In this document: positions 2,765 through 58,904 of the stretch, piece after piece
Layout of the letters: each line of letters begins with the position of its first letter
Position numbering within the stretch: position 1 is the stretch's first letter
From: Candidatus Magnetomicrobium cryptolimnococcus
GTDB lineage: Bacteria; Nitrospirota; Thermodesulfovibrionia; Thermodesulfovibrionales; Magnetobacteriaceae
Reading direction: 5' to 3'
Assembly: GCA_018606805.1 (NCBI GenBank)
Contig: JAGYWI010000007.1
Location: forward strand, 1-64,000
Length of the DNA: 64,000 nucleotides
The notes under the pieces: generated by a model
The model's input: only the letters and a program-made list of their open reading frames with translations
What the model was told of the DNA's origin: nothing
Databases searched by the model: none
Translations under genes and position numbers: made by a program

Positions 2765-4531
2765 ATGCGTGCTGTTATGGCTAAAAAAGGTATATGTTTT
2801 CTATTAATGGTAGCATTATTTGTTTTTTCTTTAAGTGTTGAAGACAGCTGCGGTAGTGAATCTGATGATAGTAATGTATGGAGCTATAATAACAGCTATA
2901 ATAACAAGGATAAAGACAATACACTTGAGATTTACTACAAATTTAATGGTACTACGCCACAATATGCTGTCATTGATTTAGATGACAGTTATTTTCGTAT
3001 GGTATATAATACTAACTCAGGCGCTAACTCTGGTTGGGGTACATCTGTAATTCTATTCCCATCGTTTTGGACAAAAGGTATTTGTGATGATAATGATGAT
3101 GCTGATAACCTGTGTCAAGGGACACCAATAGAAATTAACACTATCACGATTGATGGAGATGAGCTTGTTATATCAATTACAGGTGAAATTGGCGGTTTGA
3201 GTGCACAAGGGCAGATTCGACTTTTACCGCCTCACTATAATTCTTTTTCTGTAATCGTGAACATGACTATTAATGGAGATGCTGATTTAGACACAAGCAA
3301 GATTGGTGAAATATTTAAACCTGTAAAATTGTCATCAATGCATATTTCGGCGGCTAATTGGGATGCACAGCTTGCATTTGCTGGCTCTAATACATTTGAA
3401 ATTCCACAAACAGAATGGCTTATTCAACCACAAGAGTATATAGTAGCGGAACGTTTTGGTTTAATAGGAGGAACATCCACTTGGAAAACAAATGCACCTA
3501 CAATAGAAATAACATTAAATCAACCATTACAAATAGCTGGATGGGTAACTGGCTCAGCTAATGCTAATGATGACAATGTCGGTTTATGGGCATCATCTAA
3601 CCAAATTCTTAGCTCTTGGCAGTATACGATAACCGTTAAACCACATTATTCTGTACCAAAACCAAATTTCGTAGGAGACTTAAACAGTGATGGTACAGAC
3701 GACATATTTGGCATAGATGGAGTTAAACAGCCTTGGTACACAACGAACTTCACAGACTGGAGCAGTATACCGGGTTATTTGGAAAAAGCAACTTTGTTGA
3801 CCCACGATGATAACGGCACAACATATATAGCTGGCATAGCAACTGACACAAGCGTTTGGCTTTCAACTGATAAATACAATTGGGAAAAGATAGATGGCAA
3901 TATAGTATCATTAACAAGAGGTGATGTAAACAATGATGGCGAGGAAGATTTAGTAGGACTTGATCAAAACGGTGGCATTTGGTATACAACTGACCTTGTA
4001 ATGTGGACTAACATACCTGGCTATCTCTTTGAAATAGTATTATTAGATATAAACGGTGATGAAAACATGGATATAGCTGGGATAGCCCCAAATGGTTCGT
4101 TATGGTATACAATAGACTTAAAAACATGGAACTGGATACCCGGTTATCTGTCAAATTTAAAGGCGGCTGATTTAAATAAGGATGGAAAAACAGATTTAGC
4201 AGGCATATCATCAGATGGTTCGTTATGGTATACAACAGACCTAATAAATTGGTCAAATGTCCCAGGCACATTGTCTCGATTGGTAATTGGAGATTTTAAT
4301 GGAGATGCTTACGATGACCTAGCAGGGTTGACATCAAGCGGGCAGATTTATTATACATTAGACATGCAGACATGGACAAATATACCGGGAGAATTGAGCC
4401 AACTTGAAGCTACAGATGTAAACAAAGACGGTAAAACTGATATTATCGGCTTAACAAGTACTGGTGAGATTTTCTATTCAGTAGATATGCAAAACTGGAC
4501 AAGGATACCCGGAGCACTTTCACATTTTTAA
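2765..4531 (+). CDS. Secreted FG-GAP/VCBS-like repeat (beta-propeller) protein
   Basis: A 588-residue protein; the ATG follows AAAAGGAGGT. A signal peptide (GICFLLMVALFVFSLSV) leads to an N-terminal beta-rich region of about 280 residues without a recognised family. Residues about 300-588 are roughly seven repeats of 38-42 residues, each with an acidic loop (GDLNSDGTDD, GDVNNDGEED, DLNKDGKTD, DVNKDGKTD) and a W-Y-T-T-D-L / W-x-x-I-P-G segment. This is the FG-GAP-like calcium-loop propeller pattern. The same repeats end the 1046-residue protein at 46835, and the last two are duplicated at the window start. Spacing from the upstream gene is 106 bp, so it may share the module-1 promoter or use its own. 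Likely extracellular; ligand unknown. Confidence 0.8.
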   Translation: MRAVMAKKGICFLLMVALFVFSLSVEDSCGSESDDSNVWSYNNSYNNKDKDNTLEIYYKFNGTTPQYAVIDLDDSYFRMVYNTNSGANSGWGTSVILFPSFWTKGICDDNDDADNLCQGTPIEINTITIDGDELVISITGEIGGLSAQGQIRLLPPHYNSFSVIVNMTINGDADLDTSKIGEIFKPVKLSSMHISAANWDAQLAFAGSNTFEIPQTEWLIQPQEYIVAERFGLIGGTSTWKTNAPTIEITLNQPLQIAGWVTGSANANDDNVGLWASSNQILSSWQYTITVKPHYSVPKPNFVGDLNSDGTDDIFGIDGVKQPWYTTNFTDWSSIPGYLEKATLLTHDDNGTTYIAGIATDTSVWLSTDKYNWEKIDGNIVSLTRGDVNNDGEEDLVGLDQNGGIWYTTDLVMWTNIPGYLFEIVLLDINGDENMDIAGIAPNGSLWYTIDLKTWNWIPGYLSNLKAADLNKDGKTDLAGISSDGSLWYTTDLINWSNVPGTLSRLVIGDFNGDAYDDLAGLTSSGQIYYTLDMQTWTNIPGELSQLEATDVNKDGKTDIIGLTSTGEIFYSVDMQNWTRIPGALSHF

Positions 4532-5540: not shown

Positions 5541-7730
5541 ATGAAAAAAATATGGTTTGTATTATTGGTTATCATATTAGGAGTCAGATTCAGTAGTTTT
5601 GTGTATGGTGAATCGGTTGCTGTTAGTAACACTACATTAGCTGGTTATACAATAGTAAATACTGGAGATGAATGGAAGTATTCACAGGAAGAACAACCAG
5701 GATGGACAGGAAGTGATTTCGATGATTCTCAATGGACAAGTGGAATTACTCCATTTGGAAATGCAACATATGCTCCATGTGTTGATGTTTATAATGCTCC
5801 AACATATTGGGCAGAAAATACCACACTTTATTTACGTAAAGAAATAAATATTTCTAAAGAAGATAACTTAAGTGTTTTTGTGGCAATCGATAATGATATT
5901 ACCATATACATTGATGGTCAACAGGTTTTTTCTACAACAAGTGAGGGGTGTGCTGAAAGATGGGAATATAACTTCTCAATTCCTTCTGTAAAAGTTGGGG
6001 CTCACATTATAGCTATTAAAATTGTAGACAGAGGGGTGGCTACAGGTTTTGATATGAAAATTGACACAAATTATAATCAAAATCAAAATAATACTATAAA
6101 CCTCCCAAGAACCGGACAGACAACCTGTTATAATGCAAGTGGCAGCGTAATTTCATGCGCTGGTACGGGTCAAGATGGTGATAATTTGGCCGGCATTGAG
6201 TGGCCATCTCCAAGGTTTACTGATAATGGAAATAGTACTATAACAGATAACCTCTCAGGGCTTATGTGGATGCAAGATGCATCTACGCCTACGGTAGATG
6301 GGTGCACAGGGGGTGAGATGACATGGGTAGGGGCTTTTAATTATGTAAGCTGTTTAAATACTGCGAATTTTGCTGGTTATTCTGATTGGCGGATTCCAAA
6401 TAGGGAAGAGCTTATAAGCATTACTGATAAAAGTAATTATAACCCAGCACTGCCTGTAGACCATCTTTTTAATTCAGTAAAAACCAGTCAATATTGGTCA
6501 TCTACCACGTATGCTTTCTCACACGATCCTGTTAATGCATGGATTGTAAGTATGAGTTCTGGTTGGGTAGATAGCTATACTAAAGGCGATTCTCACTTTT
6601 ATGTATGGCCAGTACGTCTTGGACAACAGGTACGTAAAAGTGGGCAAACTACGAGTTATCAATCAAATGATGATGGGGATTTGGAGGTAGGAGTGGAATG
6701 GCCAAATCCAAGATTTACTAATAATAGTGATGAAACCATAACAGATAATCTTACAGGGCTTATGTGGGCGCAAAATGCATCTACTCCTACAGTAAACTCA
6801 TGTGCAGGTGGGACGATGATATGGAGCTATGCCTTCGATTATATATCTTGTCTAAATGCCATAGCTTATCTTGGCTATAGTGATTGGCGGCTACCAAATA
6901 TAAACGAGCTTGGAAGCCTTGTAAATGCTGAAAGAGAGAATATTGCTTCGTGGCTAAATTCAGAGGGATTTAGTAGTGCAAACAGCGGTTGGTATTGGTC
7001 ATCCACAACACTTGCTCACGCTACTAATCATGCATGGTTTGTTAGCATGTATAGTGGTAGTATAAAAATGGACAGTAAGCTTAACAGTAACTATGTATTG
7101 CCAGTACGTCTTGGGGCTACTAATACTACTCCAACTCCTACTTCTACACCCACGCCAACCCCAACAATTACCCCGACTCCAACGCCAACGTCAACCCCAG
7201 TAACTTATACGCTTACCTTATTAAAGGAAGGAAGCGGAGGTGGTTCGATAAAAAGTGAGCCATCAGGAATAAACTGTGGTGGTACATGTAGTAGTACCTT
7301 TGAAAGTGGCCAGGATGTTGCATTAACTACAACGGCAGCCTCTAATGCAAAAATAATAGGCTGGGATGATTGTGATAGTGTAAGTGAGGCAAATGTGTGT
7401 TTTGTAAATATGGATAAGGATAAAACAATCACGGTACGTATATCAAAAAAGACTGACAAAATATTAAAAATTACAAAAAAAGGAAAAGGCTCAGGCACTG
7501 TAACAGCAGATAGCGGTACTTTACTGTGGACAGATAAGGTAGGTGTTACTAGTTATAAAGAGGGTAAGCAGGTAACCCTTACGGCAGTACCGGATAATGC
7601 GTCGAAGTTTGTATCGTGGACTAATTGTGATACTAAAAGTAAAAGCGGAAAGGTATGCGCTGTTACAATGAATAAAAGGAGAGAGTTAACGGTAAAGTTT
7701 AAACCAAATAGTAATGGAGATGTTGAATAA
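5541..7730 (+). CDS. Large secreted mosaic protein: sugar-binding-like + 2x DUF1566 + 2x InlB-type repeats
   Basis: A 729-residue protein with a signal peptide (IWFVLLVIILGVRFSSFVYG). Residues about 30-180 resemble a jelly-roll/galactose-binding-type module (GWTGSDFDDSQWTSG, LYLRKEINI, VGAHIIAIKIVD). Two DUF1566 (Lcl_C) domains follow, about 187-370 and 371-530, each with R-x-G-Q-T, NLSGLMW/NLTGLMW, YSDWRxPN, WSSTT and a closing PVRLG. A TPTPTPT linker (530-560) leads to two divergent InlB repeats (560-729), paralogous to the protein at 2014. It lies 150 bp downstream of promoter module copy 2. DUF1566 domains are usually found in surface-exposed proteins; the ligand is unknown. Confidence 0.85.
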   Translation: MKKIWFVLLVIILGVRFSSFVYGESVAVSNTTLAGYTIVNTGDEWKYSQEEQPGWTGSDFDDSQWTSGITPFGNATYAPCVDVYNAPTYWAENTTLYLRKEINISKEDNLSVFVAIDNDITIYIDGQQVFSTTSEGCAERWEYNFSIPSVKVGAHIIAIKIVDRGVATGFDMKIDTNYNQNQNNTINLPRTGQTTCYNASGSVISCAGTGQDGDNLAGIEWPSPRFTDNGNSTITDNLSGLMWMQDASTPTVDGCTGGEMTWVGAFNYVSCLNTANFAGYSDWRIPNREELISITDKSNYNPALPVDHLFNSVKTSQYWSSTTYAFSHDPVNAWIVSMSSGWVDSYTKGDSHFYVWPVRLGQQVRKSGQTTSYQSNDDGDLEVGVEWPNPRFTNNSDETITDNLTGLMWAQNASTPTVNSCAGGTMIWSYAFDYISCLNAIAYLGYSDWRLPNINELGSLVNAERENIASWLNSEGFSSANSGWYWSSTTLAHATNHAWFVSMYSGSIKMDSKLNSNYVLPVRLGATNTTPTPTSTPTPTPTITPTPTPTSTPVTYTLTLLKEGSGGGSIKSEPSGINCGGTCSSTFESGQDVALTTTAASNAKIIGWDDCDSVSEANVCFVNMDKDKTITVRISKKTDKILKITKKGKGSGTVTADSGTLLWTDKVGVTSYKEGKQVTLTAVPDNASKFVSWTNCDTKSKSGKVCAVTMNKRRELTVKFKPNSNGDVE

Positions 7731-43798: not shown

Positions 43799-46534
43799 AT
43801 GCAACATTCAACAATAACCCTTAAGATAAACGGCAAAGAAATCAGTTGCCAAAAGGGTATGACCTTACTACAAGTATGTAGAGATGCTGGCATATACATA
43901 CCAACCCTTTGTCATGACGACAGATTAGAACCCTACGGGGCATGCAGGCTGTGTATAGTAGAAGTAAAAGGGCAAAGACGTCCTCTTTCTTCGTGTACCA
44001 CACCTGCCGAGGAAGGTATGGAGGTTATTACAGAAAGCGATAATTTAATAAGACTTAGAAAAAGCGTCTTAGAACTCCTACTTTCAAACCATCCAAACGA
44101 CTGCATGCTTTGTGATAAGACCGGCGCTTGCACACTACAAGAGCTAGCCTACCGATACGGGGCAAGATACGGCAAATACATGGGCGAGATGTGGAGCTTG
44201 CCTAAAAAAGAAGATAACCCGTTCATATCCTATGATCCAAACAAGTGCGTTTTGTGCGGCAGATGTGTGAATATTTGCCAAAATCTTGTGATGAAGGGTA
44301 CTATCGATATGACCGGTAGAGGGTTTCACTCCAAACCAGACACAGCCTTTGGTAAAGAGTTAAATCCGGAGATATGCCTTTTTTGTGGCCAGTGCGTATC
44401 GGCATGTCCGGTAGGGGCACTTACTGAAAAACAGGCTATGGGCAAAGGTAGAGCCCTCGGCGCTAAACGCATAAAAACCACATGTTCATACTGTGGCACG
44501 GGGTGTAATTTTTATCTCAATGTTCGAGATAATAAAATAGTAAACGTAACCTCCGACTACGACGCCCCGGTTAATAAAGGAAACTTATGTATAAAAGGAC
44601 GCTTTGGATACGAGTTTATCCAACACCCTGATAGAATAAAAACCCCGCTTATTCGAAAACATGGCGTTACGGATACCTCCCCGGATGTTATGAGCGACCC
44701 ACAAAGAGCCTTCAGAGAAGCCACTTGGGATGAAGCCCTTGACCTTGTAGCAAAACGCTTTACAGAGCTTAAGGAAAAATACGGCGCAGACTCATTAGGA
44801 GGTTTTTCTTCATCCCGGTGCACAAATGAAGAAAACTACCTTTTAGCTAAATGGGTTAGAGTTGCGTTAGGTACTAATAATGTGGATAACTGTGCCCGAG
44901 TCTGACATGCTCCAACAGTGGCCGGTCTGGCCAACTCGTTGGGTGCTGGGGCAGCCAGTAACTCATTTAATCAAATAAAAGACGCTGACGTGCTTTTTAT
45001 CTTTGGCTCAAATACTACAGAAGGACACCCTATAGTGTCGCTTCATGTGCATAAAGCCATAAAAAATGGTGCTAAAATCATAGTAGCCGACCCAAGAAAG
45101 ATAGAACTAACAAAATACGCCAATCCATGGCTAAACTTAAAGCCGGGGTCAAACATAGCACTTTTAAACGGTCTAATACACATAATACTAAAAGAAGGAT
45201 TGCAAAACAACGAATTTATTAAAAACCGCACAGAAGGCTTTGACGAGCTAAAAGAAACAATTAAAAACTATACCCCCGAACTGGTAGAAAAACTAACCGG
45301 TGTATCAAAGGATAAACTTGAAAAGGCAGCACATATTTATGCCAGCGCCAAAAACGCCATGATACTTTATGGATTGGGTATTACGGAACATCAAACCGGT
45401 ACTGAAAACGCTATGGCAATAGCCAACCTAGCCCTAAGCTGCGGGCACATAGGCCGTCCATCAACGGGTATAATGGCACTTAGAGGACAAAATAACGTTC
45501 AAGGGGCATCCGACATGGGACCAGCTCCTACAGTATACACCGGCTACCAGTATGTCTCAAAACCCGAGATAAGAGAAAAATTCGAAACCACTTGGCATGT
45601 AAAATTACCGACAGCCCCAGGCCTTAAATCCGTTGAAATGTTTGATAAAGCAATTGAAGGTAAACTTAAAGGGATATTTATAATGGGGGCTGATACAGGG
45701 CAAACAGACCCAAACCTAAACCACATATGGAAGGCCTTTGAATCTATTGACTTTATGGTAGCTTGCGATATTTTTCACACTCACACCACCCGCTTTGCCG
45801 ATGTAATACTACCCGGGGCATCATTTGCCGAAAAAGACGGCACATTCACAAACGGTGAACGCCGCATACAAAGAGTAAGAAAGGCCATAGCGCCTATTGC
45901 CGGTATGGCAGAGTGGCAAATAATCAGCGAATTATGTACCCGTATGGGTTATCCTTTAAAATACAATCACCCATCGGAAATTATGGAAGAAATCGCCAAA
46001 CTAACACCAAACTACGCAGGCATAACCTACGAACGCATAGAAGAAGAGGGCATTCAGTGGCCTTGCACCACAAAAGACCACCCCGGTACTACAACACTCT
46101 ATCAGGAACAGTTCAATCGTCCAGGCGGTAAAGCACTTTTTATTTCCTTAGAACATAAAGGCTCAGGTGAAGTGCCAGATAACGAATATCCATACGTTTT
46201 AATAACCGGCCGCAGAAGAGAGCACTATAATAACGGCTCAATGACAAGAAGAGTTAAAGAAATTATGGAAATATCCCCCGAAGAGCTGCTTGAACTACAC
46301 CCGGCAGATGCAGACAAACTAGAGATTAAAAACGGCGACATCGTTAAAGTAACATCAAGACGCGGCAAAATCCATGTAAAAACAAAAGTAACAAATAGGT
46401 CTCAAGCAGGCAATGTGTTTCTTGCCTTCCATTTTGATACAACTGTAACTAATATTCTAACATCAGCTTACCGCGACTCTATAGCAGGCACACCGGAGTA
46501 TAAATCCTGTGCGGTTAGAATTGATAAGCTATAA
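43799..46534 (+). CDS. fdhA: Selenocysteine-containing formate dehydrogenase, large catalytic subunit
   Basis: One 911-residue protein reading through the in-frame UGA at 44903-44905 (Sec369), in DNCARV-Sec-HAPTVAGLA, the active-site position of FdhA/FdhF. N-terminal modules: [2Fe-2S] (residues 1-80, YGACRLCIVEVKG), a His-Cys [4Fe-4S] region (about 82-120, HPNDCMLCDKTGACTLQELA), two [4Fe-4S] clusters (CVLCGRCVNICQ; CLFCGQCVSACP), then the [4Fe-4S] motif CSYCGTGCNFYL and bis-MGD binding domains. It oxidises formate to CO2 (or the reverse). The architecture matches NAD-linked or electron-bifurcating FDHs, but no NuoEF-like subunits adjoin. RBS AAAAGGAGG. Confidence 0.93.
44911..44942 (+). promoter_or_regulatory. 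SECIS element for Sec369
   Basis: Six bases after the UGA: CCAAC (44912-44916) pairs with GTTGG (44938-44942), and inner TGGCC (44919-44923) pairs with GGCCA (44929-44933) around the loop GGTCT. A hairpin with a GU-containing apical loop at this distance is the bacterial SECIS geometry recognised by SelB. Confidence 0.85.
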
Positions 46535-46834: not shown

Positions 46835-49800
46835 ATGAAAAGAATAATCAAAAATTATGAAGGTATGTTTGCTTTAGCAATAATGGTGATTTTATGTTTG
46901 TCTATTGGCTATTCTATAGCGGGTTTACCTAGAATAGCGGATGCTACTGGCACTATAAATATGCCACGCACTGGACAGACGAGTTGTTATGATAGCGCTG
47001 GCAATGTAGTTACATGCGCTGGTACGGGGCAAGATGGGGCGATTCAAGCTGGCGTTGAATTGCCAGACCCGCGGTTTAGTGCTGGTGCTAACAGTGATAC
47101 CGTAATAGACAATCTAACGGGGCTTATGTGGGTAAAAGATGCCTCCTCTCCTACCGTCGGTTCATGTAATATGACTGGAGGTTCAAACTGGATAAATGCG
47201 CTTGATTATGTAAGTTGCTTAAATGGGGTATATTATCTTGGTTACAGTGATTGGCGGTTGCCAAATGTCAATGAGCTGGAAACCCTTGTAAATCCCGGTG
47301 AGAGTGAGTCTGCTACATGGTTGAATGCTCAAGGATTCACCGGAGTGGCTAATAGCTACTACTTCTATTGGTCTTCTACTACTTCATCTTTAGGTGGTAC
47401 TGCGGCTTTTATAGTTTATATAGGCATACAATATATTGATGGCTCTGTTAGCAAGTCACAATCAGCTTTTGGAAGTAACGTATTGCTTGTGCGTGATTAC
47501 TACCTATCAACTCAAACTGCCATAACGTGGCAAACTGGACAAACTACAAGTTATTATACGAATGATGATGGCGCTTTGCAAAAAGGGGAGGCTTGGCCAG
47601 GTACAAGATTTACTGATAGTGGTGCTAACACTATAGAGGACAATTTAACTGGTCTTATGTGGGCAAAAGATATGTCCGTACCTACTGTTAGTTCATGTAC
47701 GGGCGGGGCTATGAATTGGCAAAACGCCTTGACTTATGTATCTTGTTTAAATTCTATAGATTATCTGGACTATTCTGATTGGAGGTTGCCAAATAGAAAA
47801 GAACTTTTGAGTGTAGTTGATAGAGGACAAAATAGTCCAGCATTTCCAAGCGGCTATCCTTTCACTGGCTATAGCGCTTCTAATTACTGGTCATCGTCTA
47901 GCGTGATTGCCTCTGCTAATGCTGCATGGGATATTCACTTTAAAATGGGGAATGTGTATTATGCAGATAAGGAGATACTATTTAATGTATGGCCAGTACG
48001 TTCCGGCGCAGTTAATACCTATGATGTTACGGTTACAATATCAGGCACTGGTGGTGGAAATATAGCCAGTTGGAGAGGTATTAATTGTGGAGAAGGAAAT
48101 AGTACATGCACAGTTTCAATAGCCATGGAAGGAATGGATACACTAACAGCATCGGCAAATGGGGCTTCTAATTTTACAGGCTGGTCAGGAGACTGCTCTG
48201 GCTCTAATTCTACCTGTTTGCTAACAATGACAGGGGATAAAACTGTAACAGCTACATTTGATTTAACCCCAACCCTAACCCCGACCCCAACCCCAACCCC
48301 AACCCCAACAGCAACCCCAACCCCAACAGATACGCCAACCCCAACAACCACCCCAACACCATTCGCAACCGTGGATACTCCAACCCCAACTCCCACAGTA
48401 ACCGCTACATCTACTCCAACCCCTACTGCAACACCAACTATTACACCAACCCCGACAAATACCCCGACCCCAACTCCAACTCCTACAGCAACCCCAACGT
48501 TGACCCCAACACCAATAATCAACGGTAACCTAACCCTATCGTTAGTTGGTACTGGCGGTGGTAGTGTTTCGGCTAGTAATTCTACCTGTAGCAGGGCACT
48601 TGGCTCAGACCCACTCGCCTGCACTTTTACTTTGCCTTTAGGAACGATGACACTTACAGCACTGGCTTCAACTAATTCAGCGTTTCTATCTTGGTCGTCA
48701 AACTCTGGTTGTGCAAATGATACAACCTGCACGGTTGATTTTTTAGCTGATATGGAAGTAGAGGCAAGGTTTGACCAAATCGGTACAGATGCTAGGGGGA
48801 TTTATACAAAGCTATTTGGCTCTGGTACTATTAAAAGTACACCACCTGGACTACATTGTGCTTGCTTGGGCTGTTCTTCGTCTGATGCCATTACCTGTTT
48901 GGCTGGGTATTTTACATTAGGTGAGCCGATAAATATTGATTTTATCCCACAGCCCGGTTATCTTCTTAGCAATATAAGGGTGATTCCGCACTATGACCCA
49001 ACTCCAATTGATTTTGGTGCAATCTATGTGGTGGGAACTGGTCCGGTTGGTTTACAGGATAACTATGACCTTGAAATAACCTTTGTGCCGTTGGCTCAGT
49101 TTGCTAAGCTTTACGCAGAAGACCTTAACGGTGATGGTAAGGATGATTTGCTTGCTGTAGATACGGAAGGGCATATGGCTTATACTTCGGACCTTACGTA
49201 CTGGGTTGGTATAGCTGGTGTTTATAGTGATTTGGCTATTTTATCGTTAGAGGGTAATGGTAGTAAGGATATTATTGGCCTTACATATAATGGAGATATT
49301 AAATATACAAAGGATTTGGTAAATTGGACATTAATTCCAAATACACAACTTACCCAAATAGCAGGTGGGCATATCAGTGCTAATACTAATGATGCACTTG
49401 TGGGGTTAACAGCAGCTGGGGAGATTAAATATACAACAGACCTTATAACCTTTAATACCATTAGCGGGTTACTAAGCTCCATTGAGATTACTGATATTGT
49501 TGGTGATTCAAATGGAGAAATACTTGGCACTGATGCAGATGGTACGGTGTATTATACTGCAGACCTTGGGGCATCATGGAGTACGATAGGTGGGGCATTG
49601 ATTGCTTCTTTCACCACAGGGGATGTCAGTGGTGATGGCAAGGCTGATATTGTTGGACTTAATTTTTCAGGTAATCCGTGTTATTCCATAAACGGTGGTA
49701 CATTTACTTGTTTAAATAACCAATATTTACAATACATAACAACAGGTGATTTAAATAGAGATGCCAAAAAAGATTTAATTGGAGTGGATGCCACAGGCAA

Positions 49801-49975
49801 TGTGTTTTATTCTATAAATTTAACTACCTTTCGTAGTGTTAATGGTATTGTGTTTTCAAATATAGTAAGTGGAGACTTTAACGGCGATGGCACAGATGAT
49901 TTAGCAGGTATAAACCTTGATGGAAAGATTGCTCATACCTTCGATATAGGAGTTACTTGGGCAGTGCTGCCTTAA
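46835..49975 (+). CDS. Giant secreted mosaic protein: 2x DUF1566, InlB-type repeats, TP linker, FG-GAP-like repeats
   Basis: A 1046-residue exported protein. Hydrophobic signal/anchor ([19 protein letters not shown], about 12-30); two DUF1566 domains (about 46-235 and 236-395; [32 protein letters not shown]); InlB-type repeat (about 400-480; [23 protein letters not shown]); Thr/Pro-rich linker (about 480-575); a second InlB-type repeat (575-655); a Cys-rich segment (CACLGC); and five or six FG-GAP-like repeats (about 755-1046; [25 protein letters not shown]). It combines the module types of the 2-7.7 kb proteins. The linker DNA is CCCCAA-rich. No promoter module of the 1126 type is upstream. 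Confidence 0.85.
48266..48510 (+). repeat. Low-complexity CCCCAA/ACTCCAACC coding repeat (Thr-Pro linker)
   Basis: Imperfect hexamer CCAACC/CCCCAA and related repeats encode alternating Thr-Pro. The opposite strand carries many GGGG runs 2-3 bases apart, enough for G-quadruplexes. Similar though less C-pure tracts encode linkers at about 7130-7200 and 58250-58440. Confidence 0.8.
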
Positions 49976-52789: not shown

Positions 52790-53038
52790 TCATACTTCAA
52801 TAAAGTCTTCCACCGGCACTGTTATTGCTTGCTTAACTTCTTTTCCAAAAGTATATATATCATTAAAATCTTTCTCAATTTTTTTTAAAACATCTGCTTT
52901 AAAATACTGTTCTCCACAGAACTCACACTCCTCACATGGCACATTATTAACAATAAGAAAATGCTCGTCATATTTGTAAATATACTGCACTACTCTTTCT
53001 TTAAAATTTTTATTACCACAAAAGTTACAGAGTTTCAT
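52790..53038 (-). CDS. YgiT-type zinc-finger protein (putative antitoxin)
   Basis: An 82-residue protein: two CxxC pairs (CNFCGN and CEECEFCGEQY) forming a Zn ribbon as in the MqsA/YgiT N-terminus, without the usual HTH domain. Coupled by a 4-nt overlap with the preceding DUF4258 gene, a common toxin-antitoxin arrangement. Confidence 0.82.
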   Translation of the reverse strand: MKLCNFCGNKNFKERVVQYIYKYDEHFLIVNNVPCEECEFCGEQYFKADVLKKIEKDFNDIYTFGKEVKQAITVPVEDFIEV

Positions 53039-53346
53039 TTCTCCCCCCTTTCATAAGGCGTTTTGAACTTAGGTAGACTTGGAACATATAACGTTATTAT
53101 CACCAGCCAATGCTCCCTCCTTCCACAAACAATGTGTATAGGTTTACCACCACCTGTAAAACCAACAACCAAACAACTTTCCCCTCTGCCTGTATCCACA
53201 TAATATTCTAATATTCTACACCTACACAAAGCCTCTTCAACTTCTCTTATTGTTAGATTATCATTTTGCCGTTCTTGGTCGCTATGCTTAGAGAAATAAT
53301 ATTCGCCATTTATTATGAAATCTTGTATCCATTTTACATTAAACAT
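53035..53346 (-). CDS. DUF4258-domain protein (putative toxin)
   Basis: A 103-residue protein: YYFSKHSDQERQNDNLTIRE near residue 15, LVVGFTGGGKPIHIVCGRR near 67, and a VIITLYVP segment, matching DUF4258 (RelE-like/BECR-type). It is upstream of the YgiT protein, as in many small toxin-antitoxin modules. Toxicity is inferred from context. Confidence 0.8.
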   Translation of the reverse strand: MFNVKWIQDFIINGEYYFSKHSDQERQNDNLTIREVEEALCRCRILEYYVDTGRGESCLVVGFTGGGKPIHIVCGRREHWLVIITLYVPSLPKFKTPYERGEK

Positions 53347-53752: not shown

Positions 53753-55024
53753 ATGAGATTACTAAGGCTTCTTAATAGTTGTTTATGTACCTATTTTGCT
53801 GTTTTTTCATTATTAATACTACTATTATTTATAATACCCGAAAAAAGCTTAGCTATTACAATGCAACTAACATCTAAAAGTTACATGCTTTTACAAGAAG
53901 ATGCACGAGATAACGATTATGCACCATTTTATGAGTACTATGAGCTTGACCTAAAAGACATAAAAGAAGGACTCATAAGTGTTCACTCCGGCGGTTGGCT
54001 TAGGTATGATTTAAAAACGGTAAGCGACGAAGAACGTGAGGTGGATGAGCTAACATATTTATATTTAAAGCTATCGCCATTAAAGGATAAATCTTTAACC
54101 TTTCAAATAGGCAGACATTATGTCTTTAGTGGGGTGGCAACAGAACAAATTGACGGCTTAAGCGGCCTGTGGGAGATAACACCGCTAACGGGTATTTCCA
54201 TATTTGGCGGCTTACCGGTTGAAACCGAAAATGACGGCAGAGATGACGATTACATAGTCGGTGGTAGGGTTTCTCAAAAGATTGCTGATAAGGCACAACT
54301 TGGTCTTTCTTACCTAAAAAGTTACAACGACGACCAATCCCATCGTGAGGAAATGGGCGTTGACACATGGCTTGGGCCAGTTGACTGGATGGAGCTTGAT
54401 GGCTTATCATCATACAATAATTTGGATAACGAGTGGATGGAACACTCCTATTATGTACGATTCTTTCCAATGAAAAATTTAATAATATCCCCGCTGTATT
54501 CACACGTAGATTATGGAAGTGCATTTTATAACACCACATTAAGTGTGTTTACACCTGAATACCTTGGTAAGGACGAATCTATAACCAAATACGGCGGATA
54601 CGTTGAATACAATATAACAAGCTGGCTTACAGCAATCCCTGACTACATCCACTACGGTTACGACGAGCTTGGTAATTCTAACTATTACGGAGCTAAACTT
54701 GCCTTTGACGTATACGGTATAAATTCCGGCGTAATGCTCCACAGAATGGCTGGCCACGTAAAACAACTGCGCTACACTGAGGCAAGGGTGTTTGCAGTTA
54801 AGACATTTAAAAAATTAAAATTAGCCCTTGATGCCATTAACTTAAACTATGATGAGGAATACAACGGTCTAAGAAACATGTATAACCTAAACGGTACGGC
54901 TGAATACGATATTACAAAATATCTAAATCTAACCGCCAGTGTTGATTATGCTAAAACGCCGGATTTTACACATAAAACAAGCGCATTTTTTAAGGTTGTA
55001 TATAATTTCGATAAAACCTTCTAA
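53753..55024 (+). CDS. Outer-membrane beta-barrel (porin-like) protein
   Basis: About 423 residues: signal peptide with a long hydrophobic core (CLCTYFAVFSLLILLLFIIP, cleavage after SLA), then alternating polar/hydrophobic strands rich in Y, G, D typical of a barrel (LYLKLSPL, LTFQIGRHYVFSG, YYVRFFPMKNLIISPLYSHV, LTASVDYAKTPD) and a C-terminal aromatic (FFKVVYNFDKTF; ends in Phe). I use the ATG at 53753, which follows AGAGGGGTT; an upstream ATG at 53684 is unsupported. It is the first gene of a cluster with three multihaem cytochromes (12 bp to the next), the layout of porin-cytochrome electron conduits. Confidence 0.75.
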   Translation: MRLLRLLNSCLCTYFAVFSLLILLLFIIPEKSLAITMQLTSKSYMLLQEDARDNDYAPFYEYYELDLKDIKEGLISVHSGGWLRYDLKTVSDEEREVDELTYLYLKLSPLKDKSLTFQIGRHYVFSGVATEQIDGLSGLWEITPLTGISIFGGLPVETENDGRDDDYIVGGRVSQKIADKAQLGLSYLKSYNDDQSHREEMGVDTWLGPVDWMELDGLSSYNNLDNEWMEHSYYVRFFPMKNLIISPLYSHVDYGSAFYNTTLSVFTPEYLGKDESITKYGGYVEYNITSWLTAIPDYIHYGYDELGNSNYYGAKLAFDVYGINSGVMLHRMAGHVKQLRYTEARVFAVKTFKKLKLALDAINLNYDEEYNGLRNMYNLNGTAEYDITKYLNLTASVDYAKTPDFTHKTSAFFKVVYNFDKTF

Positions 55025-55036
55025 AAAGGAGAAATC

Positions 55037-55546
55037 ATGCCTTATATAAATAACAGTAAAGGTAAGAAGTTATCGAGCTGGCCTTTTCGGTCGGCTTTAG
55101 TATTAACCGCACTCATTTTAATTTATATAATATGCCCATCGGGCTTATTTGCAGAAGAAGAGGAGATACCGGAAAGCCACCCCGTAGAGCTAACAGAAAA
55201 GCCGCTTTGTACCGACTGTCATCAAAAAGAAGAAGAAAAGGTCGGTGGTAAACCATTTAAAACCTACAATCACAGCGGTGATTACATAAAAAGACATCAA
55301 TACTACGCCGAACAAGGCTCAAAGGTATGTCAAATATGCCACAAAACATCCTTTTGTACCAATTGCCATGCCTACAAAGAAGAACTGATGCCAAGCACTA
55401 AGGATTCAATAAAGCCTGAGAGGTGGCTTCCACATAGAAACAATTACATATTCACCCACAGAATAGATGGTGCAATAGACCCATCTAAATGCTTCCCCTG
55501 CCACGGAAGACAAAACAATCAGAGGTGTAAACAATGCCACAAGTAA
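55037..55546 (+). CDS. Periplasmic pentahaem cytochrome c
   Basis: A 169-residue protein with a signal peptide or anchor (SALVLTALILIYIICPSGLFA) and five C-x-x-C-H motifs: CTDCH, CQICH, CTNCH, CFPCH, CKQCH. Several single histidines (SHPVE, YNHSGD, HRNNY, THRIDG) could be distal ligands, suggesting bis-His haems. It overlaps the next gene by 13 nt. Likely carries electrons across the periplasm to the barrel partner (inference). Confidence 0.85.
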   Translation: MPYINNSKGKKLSSWPFRSALVLTALILIYIICPSGLFAEEEEIPESHPVELTEKPLCTDCHQKEEEKVGGKPFKTYNHSGDYIKRHQYYAEQGSKVCQICHKTSFCTNCHAYKEELMPSTKDSIKPERWLPHRNNYIFTHRIDGAIDPSKCFPCHGRQNNQRCKQCHK

Positions 55547-56262
55547 AAATTAAGATAAAAACTACCAATATCTTTTTATCCGTTGTTTTAGTTATGATTG
55601 TATTACTACTATCAAACTGCGGAGGCAGTTCTGATTCCGGAACAACCTACGTACAGGAGGAAGGGCATACGGCTCAGTGGATAGACCCATCGTACGATGG
55701 AACGGAAGAATTTCACGGCAGTAAGATTCTTGTATCTGAAGGCACTACACAGGGAAGCCAAAGCTCACTGGGTGAAACACTTTATAAAGAATTTTGCTCA
55801 GCCTGCCACGGGGAAGACGCCTCTGGAGTCATCGGGCCTAACATTCAAGGGAAAACCGCTGAAGACATAACTAACGCCATATCTACCGTATCATTAATGA
55901 AAGGGCTAACGTCAATTTCAGAAAACGATAAAAAAGAAATAGCAGAGTTTTTAGCAGCAGCAGGCAGCACAGTAACTTCCACGGTGCAGGTAAACACCGA
56001 TGAGTGCATTAAATGCCACGGTGAGGACTTAGACGGTGGTATAGCAAACATAAGCTGCTACTCCTGTCATAACGGTCCAACCGGTACGATTGGCCATCAA
56101 GAAGGCTGGCGCACCAATATAGAAGACCCAGTACACTTTCACGGTAAATACGGTAAACCCTTTGCCATTGCCTGTACGGCTTGTCACGGTAGCGACTTAA
56201 GGGGAAAACTCGGTCCTAGCTGCTTTGACTGCCATAATGGTACTGAGTGGGACAGTTTTTAA
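55534..56262 (+). CDS. Pentahaem cytochrome c lipoprotein
   Basis: A 242-residue protein: hydrophobic N-terminus then lipobox LLLSNC (Cys near 29), so membrane-anchored. One class I cytochrome c domain (about 83-145; CSACHGEDASGVIGPNIQGK) is followed by four more haem motifs, CIKCH, CYSCH, CTACH, CFDCH. The domain GPNIQGKTAEDI is the same module as in the next gene. Lies between two cytochrome genes of the same operon. Confidence 0.85.
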   Translation: MPQVKIKIKTTNIFLSVVLVMIVLLLSNCGGSSDSGTTYVQEEGHTAQWIDPSYDGTEEFHGSKILVSEGTTQGSQSSLGETLYKEFCSACHGEDASGVIGPNIQGKTAEDITNAISTVSLMKGLTSISENDKKEIAEFLAAAGSTVTSTVQVNTDECIKCHGEDLDGGIANISCYSCHNGPTGTIGHQEGWRTNIEDPVHFHGKYGKPFAIACTACHGSDLRGKLGPSCFDCHNGTEWDSF

Positions 56263-56369
56263 TATATTAAATTAAGGAGGTGAGAAAACATAGGAATTTG
56301 CATATTTTTCAACAAAATGGGGGATTTGTTAATTAAATTAAAACCAAAAAATCAGGAGGGTTAACAAAA

Positions 56370-58646
56370 TTGGTAAATAAGAGATTAGGTAAATTTATTG
56401 TCATTTTCTTATTAGTAGCAGTTGGTGCATTTATATATGGTAATTTCGATTTAAATGCAAGTATGACCAAACAACTCTACACGGTAAAAATGGATGAAGG
56501 ACAGATGTCTATGCCAATGGGTCAACAGATGATGACCTATTCTCCAGTGTCTGACCCAGTTGTAGGCACCACGGATCCAACAGTAGCTCGTCCTATGGGC
56601 TTAGGTTCCATGGCAAGTGGCGGCAATATGCTAAGCATGCACATTAAACTTGGGCAATTTGTAGGCAACGTAGATGTTTATTTTGGTGTATTTTCAGAAG
56701 CTATCAATCCTAAAGAAATCTTAATTTTAAACCAAAACAATGAATTTGTAGAGGCATCCAAGGGTTTAACACCGTGGCGCTCAAATACAGTAGGCAACAT
56801 TGATGAAACACTTTTTGGTGATATTCCAACATCCAGTATTACACAAGGTACTTATTACCTTTATTTAGGTATAACACCAGCCGGTGGTAATGATTTTGCA
56901 AATAATTTTATTTATGAAACTCGCTTTACCGTATCACCAAGCGATTATGTAGCAACATTAGATGATTTTAAAAACTACAGCACATGGGATGTCGTTGATT
57001 ATACCATATCAGATGCGAACCCCACACTTGCCTCAGCCCACAGCGGAAGCGACGAAACATATTCCCGCAGGGTTTATGCCAATAGTGCTGCAGTACTTCA
57101 GGGCAGCGAGTATCCGGTTGGTTCTATATTGGTAAAGGAAACCTTTTCTTGGGCAGATGGCGCAAAAAATTTCGCCAGCTCAGGCGGTTTACTTGCAATG
57201 GTAAAGCGCGCAAGCGGCTTTAACCCATCAAATAACAACTGGGAATGGTTTATATTAAGCACAGACCTCTCCTCCATAACATCACAAGGAGCAGACATAT
57301 CAAACGGCATATGTAACACATGCCACAGCTCTGCTACCCAAGACAGCAAAGCAAGCGATTACGTATTTGAAAACCCAACAGAATTTATAGCCGAGGATTC
57401 TGACTTTGCTGATTACACCAACTGGTCTTTAATTGATACCAGTAGTGATGCCAACCCACTCTTAGGCTCAGCTCACATACCCGGCTCAACAAGATATGTA
57501 TACAAGAAACAATTCAATGCCAACCCCGATACCGAAGAACAAGGCTATCCGATAGGTACAATCATACTAAAGAGGACAGTTAGCAGCTACTCAACCGAAA
57601 TAACAGCTATGGTAAAACGCGGCGGCAGTTTTGACACAGCAAATGGCAATTGGGAATATTTCACATTAGATGCCTCAACACTAAGTATAACGGGCCGTGG
57701 CGCTGACTTAATGGATGGCGGCTGTAAAAGCTGTCATGCTCAGGCATTAAGCACTGAAAACGGTAAAGATTATGTATTTAAACATGATAACGACCCATTT
57801 AATAACGACTCTACTGCCCAGATTGCAACAGGCAAAGAGCTATTTACGAAAACCTGCTCTGGCTGCCATGGCGAAAATGCTGTTGGCAACGTTGGACCAA
57901 ATATTCAAGGGGAAGACGCTGAGGAAATCGAAGAGGCTCTTAAAACCGTTAGTGCAATGAGCGGCGTTTCTGTTACTGAAAGCGAAATAGAGGCAATTGC
58001 AGCATATTTGGCTACTTTAACTACCACAACAACGCCGTCTGCTGAAAATGGAGAAGAACTCTTTACGAAAAACTGCGCTGTCTGCCATGGCGAAAACGCT
58101 GTCGGCAATGTTGGACCAAATATACAAGGGGAAGACGCTGAGGAAATCGAAGAGGCTCTTGAAACTGTTAGCGCAATGAGCGGTGTTTCTGTATCACAAA
58201 GCGAAATAAAGGATATTGCAGCATACCTGGCTACTTTAACAACTACCACACCAACTCCTACACCAACCGCTACCGCCACAGCCACTCCTACACCAACATC
58301 AACTCCAACAGCTACTCCTACACCAACCGCTACCGCCACAGCCACTCCAACACCAACACCAACTGCCACAGCCACTCCTACTCCAACACCAACTGCTACC
58401 GCCACACCAACTCCGACCCCAACTCCAACAGCTACTCCTTCAAACGTTGCATTAGGACAGCAAACATTTTCACAAAAATGTGCTGGCTGTCATGGCAGTA
58501 ATGCAGAAGGTAACATCGGGCCAAACATACAGGGAAAAACAGCAACCGACATTCAAACAGCCCTAAGCACAGTACCACTTATGAGCGGGGTTTCTGTAAC
58601 ATCAACTGAAGTAGAGGCAATTGCAGCATTTTTAGCTACGCTGTAA
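56370..58646 (+). CDS. P460-cytochrome c fusion protein with two P460-like domains and three cytochrome c domains
   Basis: A 758-residue protein starting at TTG (56370) after AGGAGGG; signal/anchor at 7-25. About 30-180: an unfamiliar beta-rich N-terminal domain. Two P460-like domains (about 195-320 and 335-460; YPVGSILVKET / YPIGTIILKRT, AMVKR, GICNTCHS / GGCKSCHA) each end in CxxCH. Three class I cytochrome c domains follow (CSGCH, CAVCH, CAGCH; GPNIQGEDAEEI), the last behind a TPTPTAT linker (about 625-690). In cytochrome P460 a Lys cross-links the haem in enzymes of hydroxylamine/NO chemistry; substrate here is unknown. The first two cytochrome c domains are near-identical at DNA level. 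Confidence 0.82.
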   Translation: MVNKRLGKFIVIFLLVAVGAFIYGNFDLNASMTKQLYTVKMDEGQMSMPMGQQMMTYSPVSDPVVGTTDPTVARPMGLGSMASGGNMLSMHIKLGQFVGNVDVYFGVFSEAINPKEILILNQNNEFVEASKGLTPWRSNTVGNIDETLFGDIPTSSITQGTYYLYLGITPAGGNDFANNFIYETRFTVSPSDYVATLDDFKNYSTWDVVDYTISDANPTLASAHSGSDETYSRRVYANSAAVLQGSEYPVGSILVKETFSWADGAKNFASSGGLLAMVKRASGFNPSNNNWEWFILSTDLSSITSQGADISNGICNTCHSSATQDSKASDYVFENPTEFIAEDSDFADYTNWSLIDTSSDANPLLGSAHIPGSTRYVYKKQFNANPDTEEQGYPIGTIILKRTVSSYSTEITAMVKRGGSFDTANGNWEYFTLDASTLSITGRGADLMDGGCKSCHAQALSTENGKDYVFKHDNDPFNNDSTAQIATGKELFTKTCSGCHGENAVGNVGPNIQGEDAEEIEEALKTVSAMSGVSVTESEIEAIAAYLATLTTTTTPSAENGEELFTKNCAVCHGENAVGNVGPNIQGEDAEEIEEALETVSAMSGVSVSQSEIKDIAAYLATLTTTTPTPTPTATATATPTPTSTPTATPTPTATATATPTPTPTATATPTPTPTATATPTPTPTPTATPSNVALGQQTFSQKCAGCHGSNAEGNIGPNIQGKTATDIQTALSTVPLMSGVSVTSTEVEAIAAFLATL

Positions 58647-58769: not shown

Positions 58770-58904
58770 AGCATTTTAATTTGATAATGACACATAAAAT
58801 AGGGCAGACACATAGGTCTGCCCCTACGATGTACGTATTTTTGTAGGGGCGAACCTATGTGTTCGCCCTTAATTTGAGTTGAACTATCACACAAATTAAA
58901 TGCT
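58770..58904 (+). mobile_element. MITE-like element, copy 4 (decayed)
   Basis: AGCATTTTAATTTG (58770-58783) is the approximate inverse of CAAATTAAATGCT (58892-58904). The core AGGGCAGACACATAGGTCTG and GTAGGGGCGAACC is the same as in copies 1-3. It lies just outside the DUF29 gene stop, which falls within the right end. Confidence 0.6.

Follow-up and report, generated by a model that had tools for sequence, protein, structure and literature searches.

A window of 64,000 nucleotides from Candidatus Magnetomicrobium cryptolimnococcus (contig JAGYWI010000007.1) contains four consecutive genes on the forward strand, encoding an outer-membrane β-barrel (gene 1), a five-haem cytochrome c (gene 2), a five-haem lipoprotein (gene 3) and a protein with two P460 domains and three cytochrome c domains (gene 4). 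Our comparative analysis reveals that genes 1–3 are a real, conserved and widespread unit of the porin–cytochrome type, which very probably acts as an outer-membrane electron conduit. We propose that gene 4 adds a P460 module that docks on this conduit and binds a small ligand, and assign the complete model a probability of about 0.5.

The four reading frames are tightly packed, with intergenic gaps of 12, –13 and 107 base pairs (bp), as described in the sequence-only reading of this DNA from which our analysis started, and no terminator-like site was found in the 107-bp gap between genes 3 and 4. The fifteen CxxCH haem-binding motifs claimed in that reading were recovered as five in each of genes 2, 3 and 4. 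By comparison, composition-preserving shuffles of the three cytochromes yielded mean counts of 0.04, 0.02 and 0.002 (~0.06 summed), and the remaining 16,082 residues encoded by open reading frames of at least 120 amino acids in the window contain no CxxCH, indicating that the motifs lie far beyond chance. The host genome spans 3.59 megabases and is 98.5% complete, and its relatives among the genomes searched belong to Nitrospirota.

The gene order of the trio is conserved well beyond the host. Scanning genome contigs with the five-haem sequence alone returned zero matches, whereas a profile scan with the five-haem alignment against 84,980 species genomes succeeded, identifying 78 loci, some of which are the same contigs. 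In 66 of 74 loci, the barrel gene immediately precedes the five-haem gene, and the full order of barrel, five-haem and downstream multihaem gene is present in 59 of the 74, several of the exceptions being contig ends or errors of reading-frame picking in GC-rich DNA. Median gaps are –4 and –22 bp, often overlaps. The loci belong to Nitrospirota, Desulfuromonadales/Geobacterales and a few other groups, and include named Citrifermentans and Geomonas strains. A relative of the barrel was also found in 15 of 100 related genomes besides the host; apart from fragments at contig ends, it is followed in order by a multihaem gene and a multihaem lipoprotein-like gene, and the distant ones among these clusters carry 8–9 haems in the second protein and 9–13 in the third. 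Recurrence of the three-gene order in about 60–80 loci excludes the possibility, raised as a refutation of the cluster, that its genes never co-occur elsewhere; this holds for the trio, but not for the four-gene order. At two loci (L126 and L140), the five-haem trio adjoins a distant 10-haem barrel cluster, the two running in opposite directions.

The barrel assignment is supported by structure prediction. The AlphaFold model of gene 1, computed from a 50-row alignment, is a 22-strand barrel with a mean predicted local distance difference test (pLDDT) score of 87.8 and a predicted template modelling score of 0.79, arguing against a non-barrel fold. In structure comparison it matches best the plugged 22-strand transporters, BtuB among them (Z of ~18–19 over ~340 residues), together with the FimD pore. 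MtrB was not among the structural matches listed (Foldseek/VIA), a result that carries no weight either way. Neither Pfam nor NCBIfam models matched the barrel, which is too diverged for them. The model leaves zero residues for a plug, and the plug of 22-strand transporters is about the size of the mature five-haem protein (~130 residues), in which all five CxxCH motifs are invariant across 7 homologues. On this analogy of size and space, the five-haem cytochrome may well sit within the barrel, in the way that MtrA sits inside MtrB, an arrangement addressed in PMC7198977.

Gene 3 begins with a lipobox-like LLSNC sequence and combines one class I cytochrome c domain (CxxCH at residue 88) with four haem motifs at residues 158, 175, 214 and 230. 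This multihaem lipoprotein is predicted to be the exit cytochrome, probably at the cell surface, as in the trio relatives. The sequence-only reading had placed P460 domains in place of an exit cytochrome; because gene 3 fills that role, the idea was dropped, and the P460 protein is an extra, fourth component.

Consistent with the conduit layout recognized in that reading, the trio comprises the general parts of a porin–cytochrome system: a barrel, a conserved adjoining multihaem cytochrome and a clustered multihaem exit lipoprotein with predicted surface exposure. MtrCAB of Shewanella, and OmcB/OmcC and ExtABCD/EFG of Geobacter, likewise join in each cluster a barrel, a periplasmic multihaem cytochrome and at least one outer-membrane lipoprotein cytochrome (PMC6148476, PMC4245776). 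The present system is distinct from these in that the barrel partner carries five haems, as compared with 8–12 in most of them, that the 22-strand barrel has no sequence match that we could find to solved structures, and that the order is barrel, five-haem cytochrome and lipoprotein, with the P460 gene added. The NCBIfam Ext models were not matched, with 13.4 bits for ExtS (cut-off 100) and 15.5 for ExtN/ExtO (cut-off 200), and the barrels matched zero Ext models. OetABI, described in sulfate-reducing partners of anaerobic methanotrophic archaea and in Geobacterales (PMC10553843), shares a periplasmic cytochrome, a barrel, a surface lipoprotein cytochrome and similar taxa, a likeness of description and partial synteny by which the trio may be of this type. 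At three trio loci (L077, L079 and L086), a downstream large protein, which in the two cases tested (L077 and L079) is an NHL β-propeller, and an 18–22-haem cytochrome recall the large-cytochrome operon of PMC5539420, although no counterpart of its peptidyl-prolyl isomerase was recognized at the trio loci.

Gene 4 starts with TTG at 56370, preceded by the ribosome-binding site AGGAGGG. Pfam recognizes two Cytochrome_P460 stretches (65.5 bits versus a cut-off of 27) and three class I cytochrome c stretches, all above curated cut-offs, so that the domain composition first read from the 758-residue translation stands. This is distinct from the characterized P460 and cytochrome c′-β proteins, which are single-domain in PMC11928373, and our literature search found no publication describing a fusion of P460 with cytochrome c domains. 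Cytochrome c domains 1 and 2 arose by recent duplication (219-bp period, 88% matches). Outside gene 4, the third domain finds its best match in the host genome in the gene 3 domain (61 bits), followed by a cupredoxin–cytochrome c protein on contig C51 (55 bits). The latter protein (L196:9498-10487) comprises a cupredoxin, a β domain and a cytochrome c of the type found in genes 3 and 4.

The N-terminal β module of gene 4 was considered as a conduit-specific part and rejected, since a search of the phylum showed many unrelated secreted carriers. In one genome (G044), the gene that follows the trio encodes a cupredoxin protein sharing this module; as the module is common, this parallel is weak and counts little. 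Two further secreted proteins (L184:6430-10724 and L187:5555-8209) combine the module with one to eight haem motifs, pointing to a modular cytochrome family of Nitrospirota.

Tandem P460 proteins are rare, and the sequence-only reading was right to see P460 beside an outer-membrane electron route as unusual. The P460 family PF16694 was found in 134 of 395 phylum genomes, with reading frames shorter than 350 residues among the matches listed. A query comprising both P460 domains retrieved, besides the host, a single genome among 345 of the phylum (G328) and then its genus mate (G368); one match was obtained among 267 genomes of an acidobacterial set (G803), and none with both domains was found in the 247 and 267 genomes reached through loci of Desulfuromonadales/Desulfobacterota. 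The G328 and G368 proteins, from a distant Nitrospirota genus of another family, contain three P460 domains behind a lipoprotein-like N-terminus, and their tandem P460 is 45–47% identical to that of gene 4. In G328, 51 bp separate the tandem P460 from a likely monohaem-barrel gene downstream; in G368, the longest reading frame of the tandem P460 overlaps that gene. This neighbouring gene, which lies outside the window, has a single CxxCH close to the N-terminus followed by a likely barrel, matched in Pfam weakly and under the cut-off, and so resembles the layout of Cyc2-type fused monohaem cytochrome–porins (PMC9040806). Judged by gene content, tandem P460 is thus adjacent to predicted outer-membrane electron routes of two different types, which favours a role for P460 in outer-membrane electron transfer. 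A separate reading frame of 1557 residues (L155) has a single P460 domain with propeller-like repeats elsewhere, and no conduit genes nearby.

Taken with the co-oriented cluster and the related cytochrome c domains, this second pairing of tandem P460 with an electron route leads us to lean slightly towards gene 4 being an accessory redox partner of the conduit. Several observations weigh against it. Among the genomes searched, the four-gene order occurs in the host alone; no P460 neighbour was found at any trio locus examined outside the host, P460 domains being absent from loci L065–L142; and the acidobacterial tandem P460 (L216:9582-10619) is a stand-alone, two-domain lipoprotein-like protein without a cytochrome or barrel neighbour. 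The lone four-gene case and this stand-alone gene point away from a partnership. In addition, gene 4 lacks a lipobox, its β module is widespread in unrelated secreted proteins, and NrfA was not found in the host genome, where other nitrogen genes were not searched, so that a nitrogen pathway is not yet in view. A possible, though less probable, explanation is that the trio is the whole conduit and that gene 4, placed downstream by chance, encodes an independent secreted protein of redox or stress function, such as a scavenger of nitric oxide (NO). The conservation of the trio without P460 in all other loci examined, the 107 bp separating gene 4 from it and the stand-alone acidobacterial gene agree with such independence, whereas the shared strand and terminator-free gap, the related cytochrome c domain in gene 3 and the tandem P460 adjoining an outer-membrane cytochrome–barrel gene in another family do not.

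P460 haem being known to react with hydroxylamine and NO, the residues around the P460 haems bear on what gene 4 might do. Its P460 family profile matches P460 structures (6hiu, 2je2 and others) with E values down to 8e-49. A fold prediction of the tandem was poor (pLDDT 57, three-row alignment) and was not relied on; its Foldseek ranks 1–19 were all P460 or c′-β proteins, with E values above 0.001. Lys256 and Lys401 align with Lys70 of Nitrosomonas europaea P460, the cross-link residue, so that, as far as alignment can tell, the haem-linking lysine that the sequence-only reading proposed to check is present in both domains. By comparison, cytochrome c′-β has Phe or Met at this position (PMC11928373), setting both gene 4 domains apart from it. 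Gene 4 shares with P460 and c′-β the fold family and a CxxCH at the C-terminal end, and with P460 the lysine. Where N. europaea P460 has Glu96 as its distal carboxylate and the Methylococcus capsulatus protein has Asp102, gene 4 has Leu275 (domain 1) and Thr412 (domain 2). All six aligned tandem P460 domains keep the lysine and have no carboxylate at the catalytic position. Such a non-carboxylate pocket is known from the P460 of Nitrosomonas sp. AL212, termed a ‘halfway house’ protein (PMC11928373).

The P460 haems of gene 4 are predicted most likely to bind NO or a similar ligand. The main alternative, which we consider unlikely, is that the fold has been reused purely as an electron relay or store without ligand chemistry. 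Loss of the distal carboxylate and the presence of three electron-carrier cytochrome c domains in the same chain would fit a relay; however, known P460 and c′-β haems are low-potential ligand-binding sites (PMC11928373), which would make a poor design for fast relay, and the retained lysine would be unneeded by a plain relay. Least likely, and very improbable, is that the domains are hydroxylamine oxidases feeding electrons into the conduit or periplasm: despite P460 family membership, both lysines and Glu410, which lies two residues before the distal position and has a counterpart in domain 2 of every tandem protein seen, the catalytic carboxylate is replaced, a natural P460 with Ala at this position lacks hydroxylamine oxidation, and a Glu-to-Asp change abolishes the activity of N. 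europaea P460 (PMC11928373). Hydroxylamine oxidation is thus unlikely, at least for domain 1, while the conserved Glu410 keeps a small probability of activity for domain 2. Of the two functions first suggested for the P460 domains, a reactive-nitrogen function in the form of hydroxylamine oxidation is disfavoured, but NO binding or a reused fold are both compatible with the residues.

The model of a conduit with a docked P460 module builds on the gene content and motifs, the predicted barrel, the conserved trio and its order, the lysines present and the distal carboxylate replaced. The plugless 22-strand barrel would hold the small five-haem cytochrome, which would connect the periplasm with the five-haem surface lipoprotein by carrying electrons through the outer membrane. 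The secreted gene 4 protein would dock on the conduit at the surface, probably through contact with gene 3, and its three cytochrome c domains would exchange electrons with the similar domain of gene 3 and pass them to or from the two Lys-cross-linked P460 haems. The ligand of these haems would be a small molecule, with NO or some other reactive nitrogen species the most likely, and they would not oxidize hydroxylamine. A broader proposal regards tandem P460 proteins as a class of their own, serving conduits as surface redox heads that link small reactive nitrogen species directly to trans-envelope electron flow; the pairing would have originated on two or more occasions, with conduits of two unrelated types. 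This proposal appears rather doubtful at present.

The five-haem trio represents a compact conduit family across Nitrospirota and metal-reducing Desulfuromonadales, and its presence in the named strains makes its role testable. Should P460 proteins prove to cooperate with this trio, reactive-nitrogen chemistry would be coupled to extracellular electron transfer, a connection described neither in the P460 review (PMC11928373) nor in the conduit papers cited here. It would also suggest a function for halfway-house P460 proteins, which keep the cross-link but cannot oxidize hydroxylamine.

Table 1. Positions of the four genes, of the domains of gene 4 and of related tandem P460 genes (window coordinates unless a locus is given)
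Feature	Position	Strand	Basis
Outer-membrane β-barrel, 423 residues, 22 predicted strands, plug domain absent (gene 1)	53753..55024	+	AlphaFold model, structural matches, synteny
Five-haem cytochrome c, 169 residues, N-terminal signal, predicted in or under barrel (gene 2)	55037..55546	+	Homologue alignment
Five-haem lipoprotein, LLSNC lipobox-like start, predicted exit cytochrome (gene 3)	55534..56262	+	Motifs, Pfam
Secreted 758-residue protein: β module, two P460, three class I cytochrome c domains, TP-rich linker (gene 4)	56370..58646	+	Pfam, motifs
Gene 4, N-terminal β module, residues 26-195	56445..56954	+	Shared with G044 cupredoxin protein in same slot and many secreted proteins
Gene 4, P460 domain 1: Lys256 (cross-link position), Leu275 (distal-carboxylate position), CNTCH at 315	56955..57374	+	Pfam, structure alignment
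Gene 4, P460 domain 2: Lys401 (cross-link position), Thr412 (distal position), conserved Glu410, CKSCH at 452	57375..57785	+	Pfam, structure alignment
Gene 4, class I cytochrome c domain 1	57816..58019	+	Pfam
Gene 4, class I cytochrome c domain 2, recent duplicate of domain 1	58041..58238	+	Pfam, repeat
Gene 4, TP-rich repeat linker	58240..58439	+	Repeat
Gene 4, class I cytochrome c domain 3	58434..58643	+	Pfam
Triple-P460 lipoprotein-like gene directly upstream of monohaem CxxCH and likely barrel gene	L154:9479-12424, L160:7520-10299		Two genomes, one Nitrospirota genus

Further features were observed around the cluster. Facing repeats of the GGGGCGAACCTATGTGTTCGCCC type follow the operon at 58801-58871 and are terminator-like on both strands. 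Just upstream, on the reverse strand (52790-53346), a weakly matched MqsA-like antitoxin and a DUF4258 protein likely form a toxin–antitoxin pair. A formate dehydrogenase alpha subunit is encoded at 43799-46534, where two listed reading frames are one gene with an in-frame TGA at codon 369 (NCARVUHAP), likely read as selenocysteine. The region 46835-49975 encodes a secreted protein of 1046 residues with two Lcl_C domains, a TP-rich linker and FG-GAP repeats, and the proteins at 2765-4531 and 5541-7730 look similar to it.

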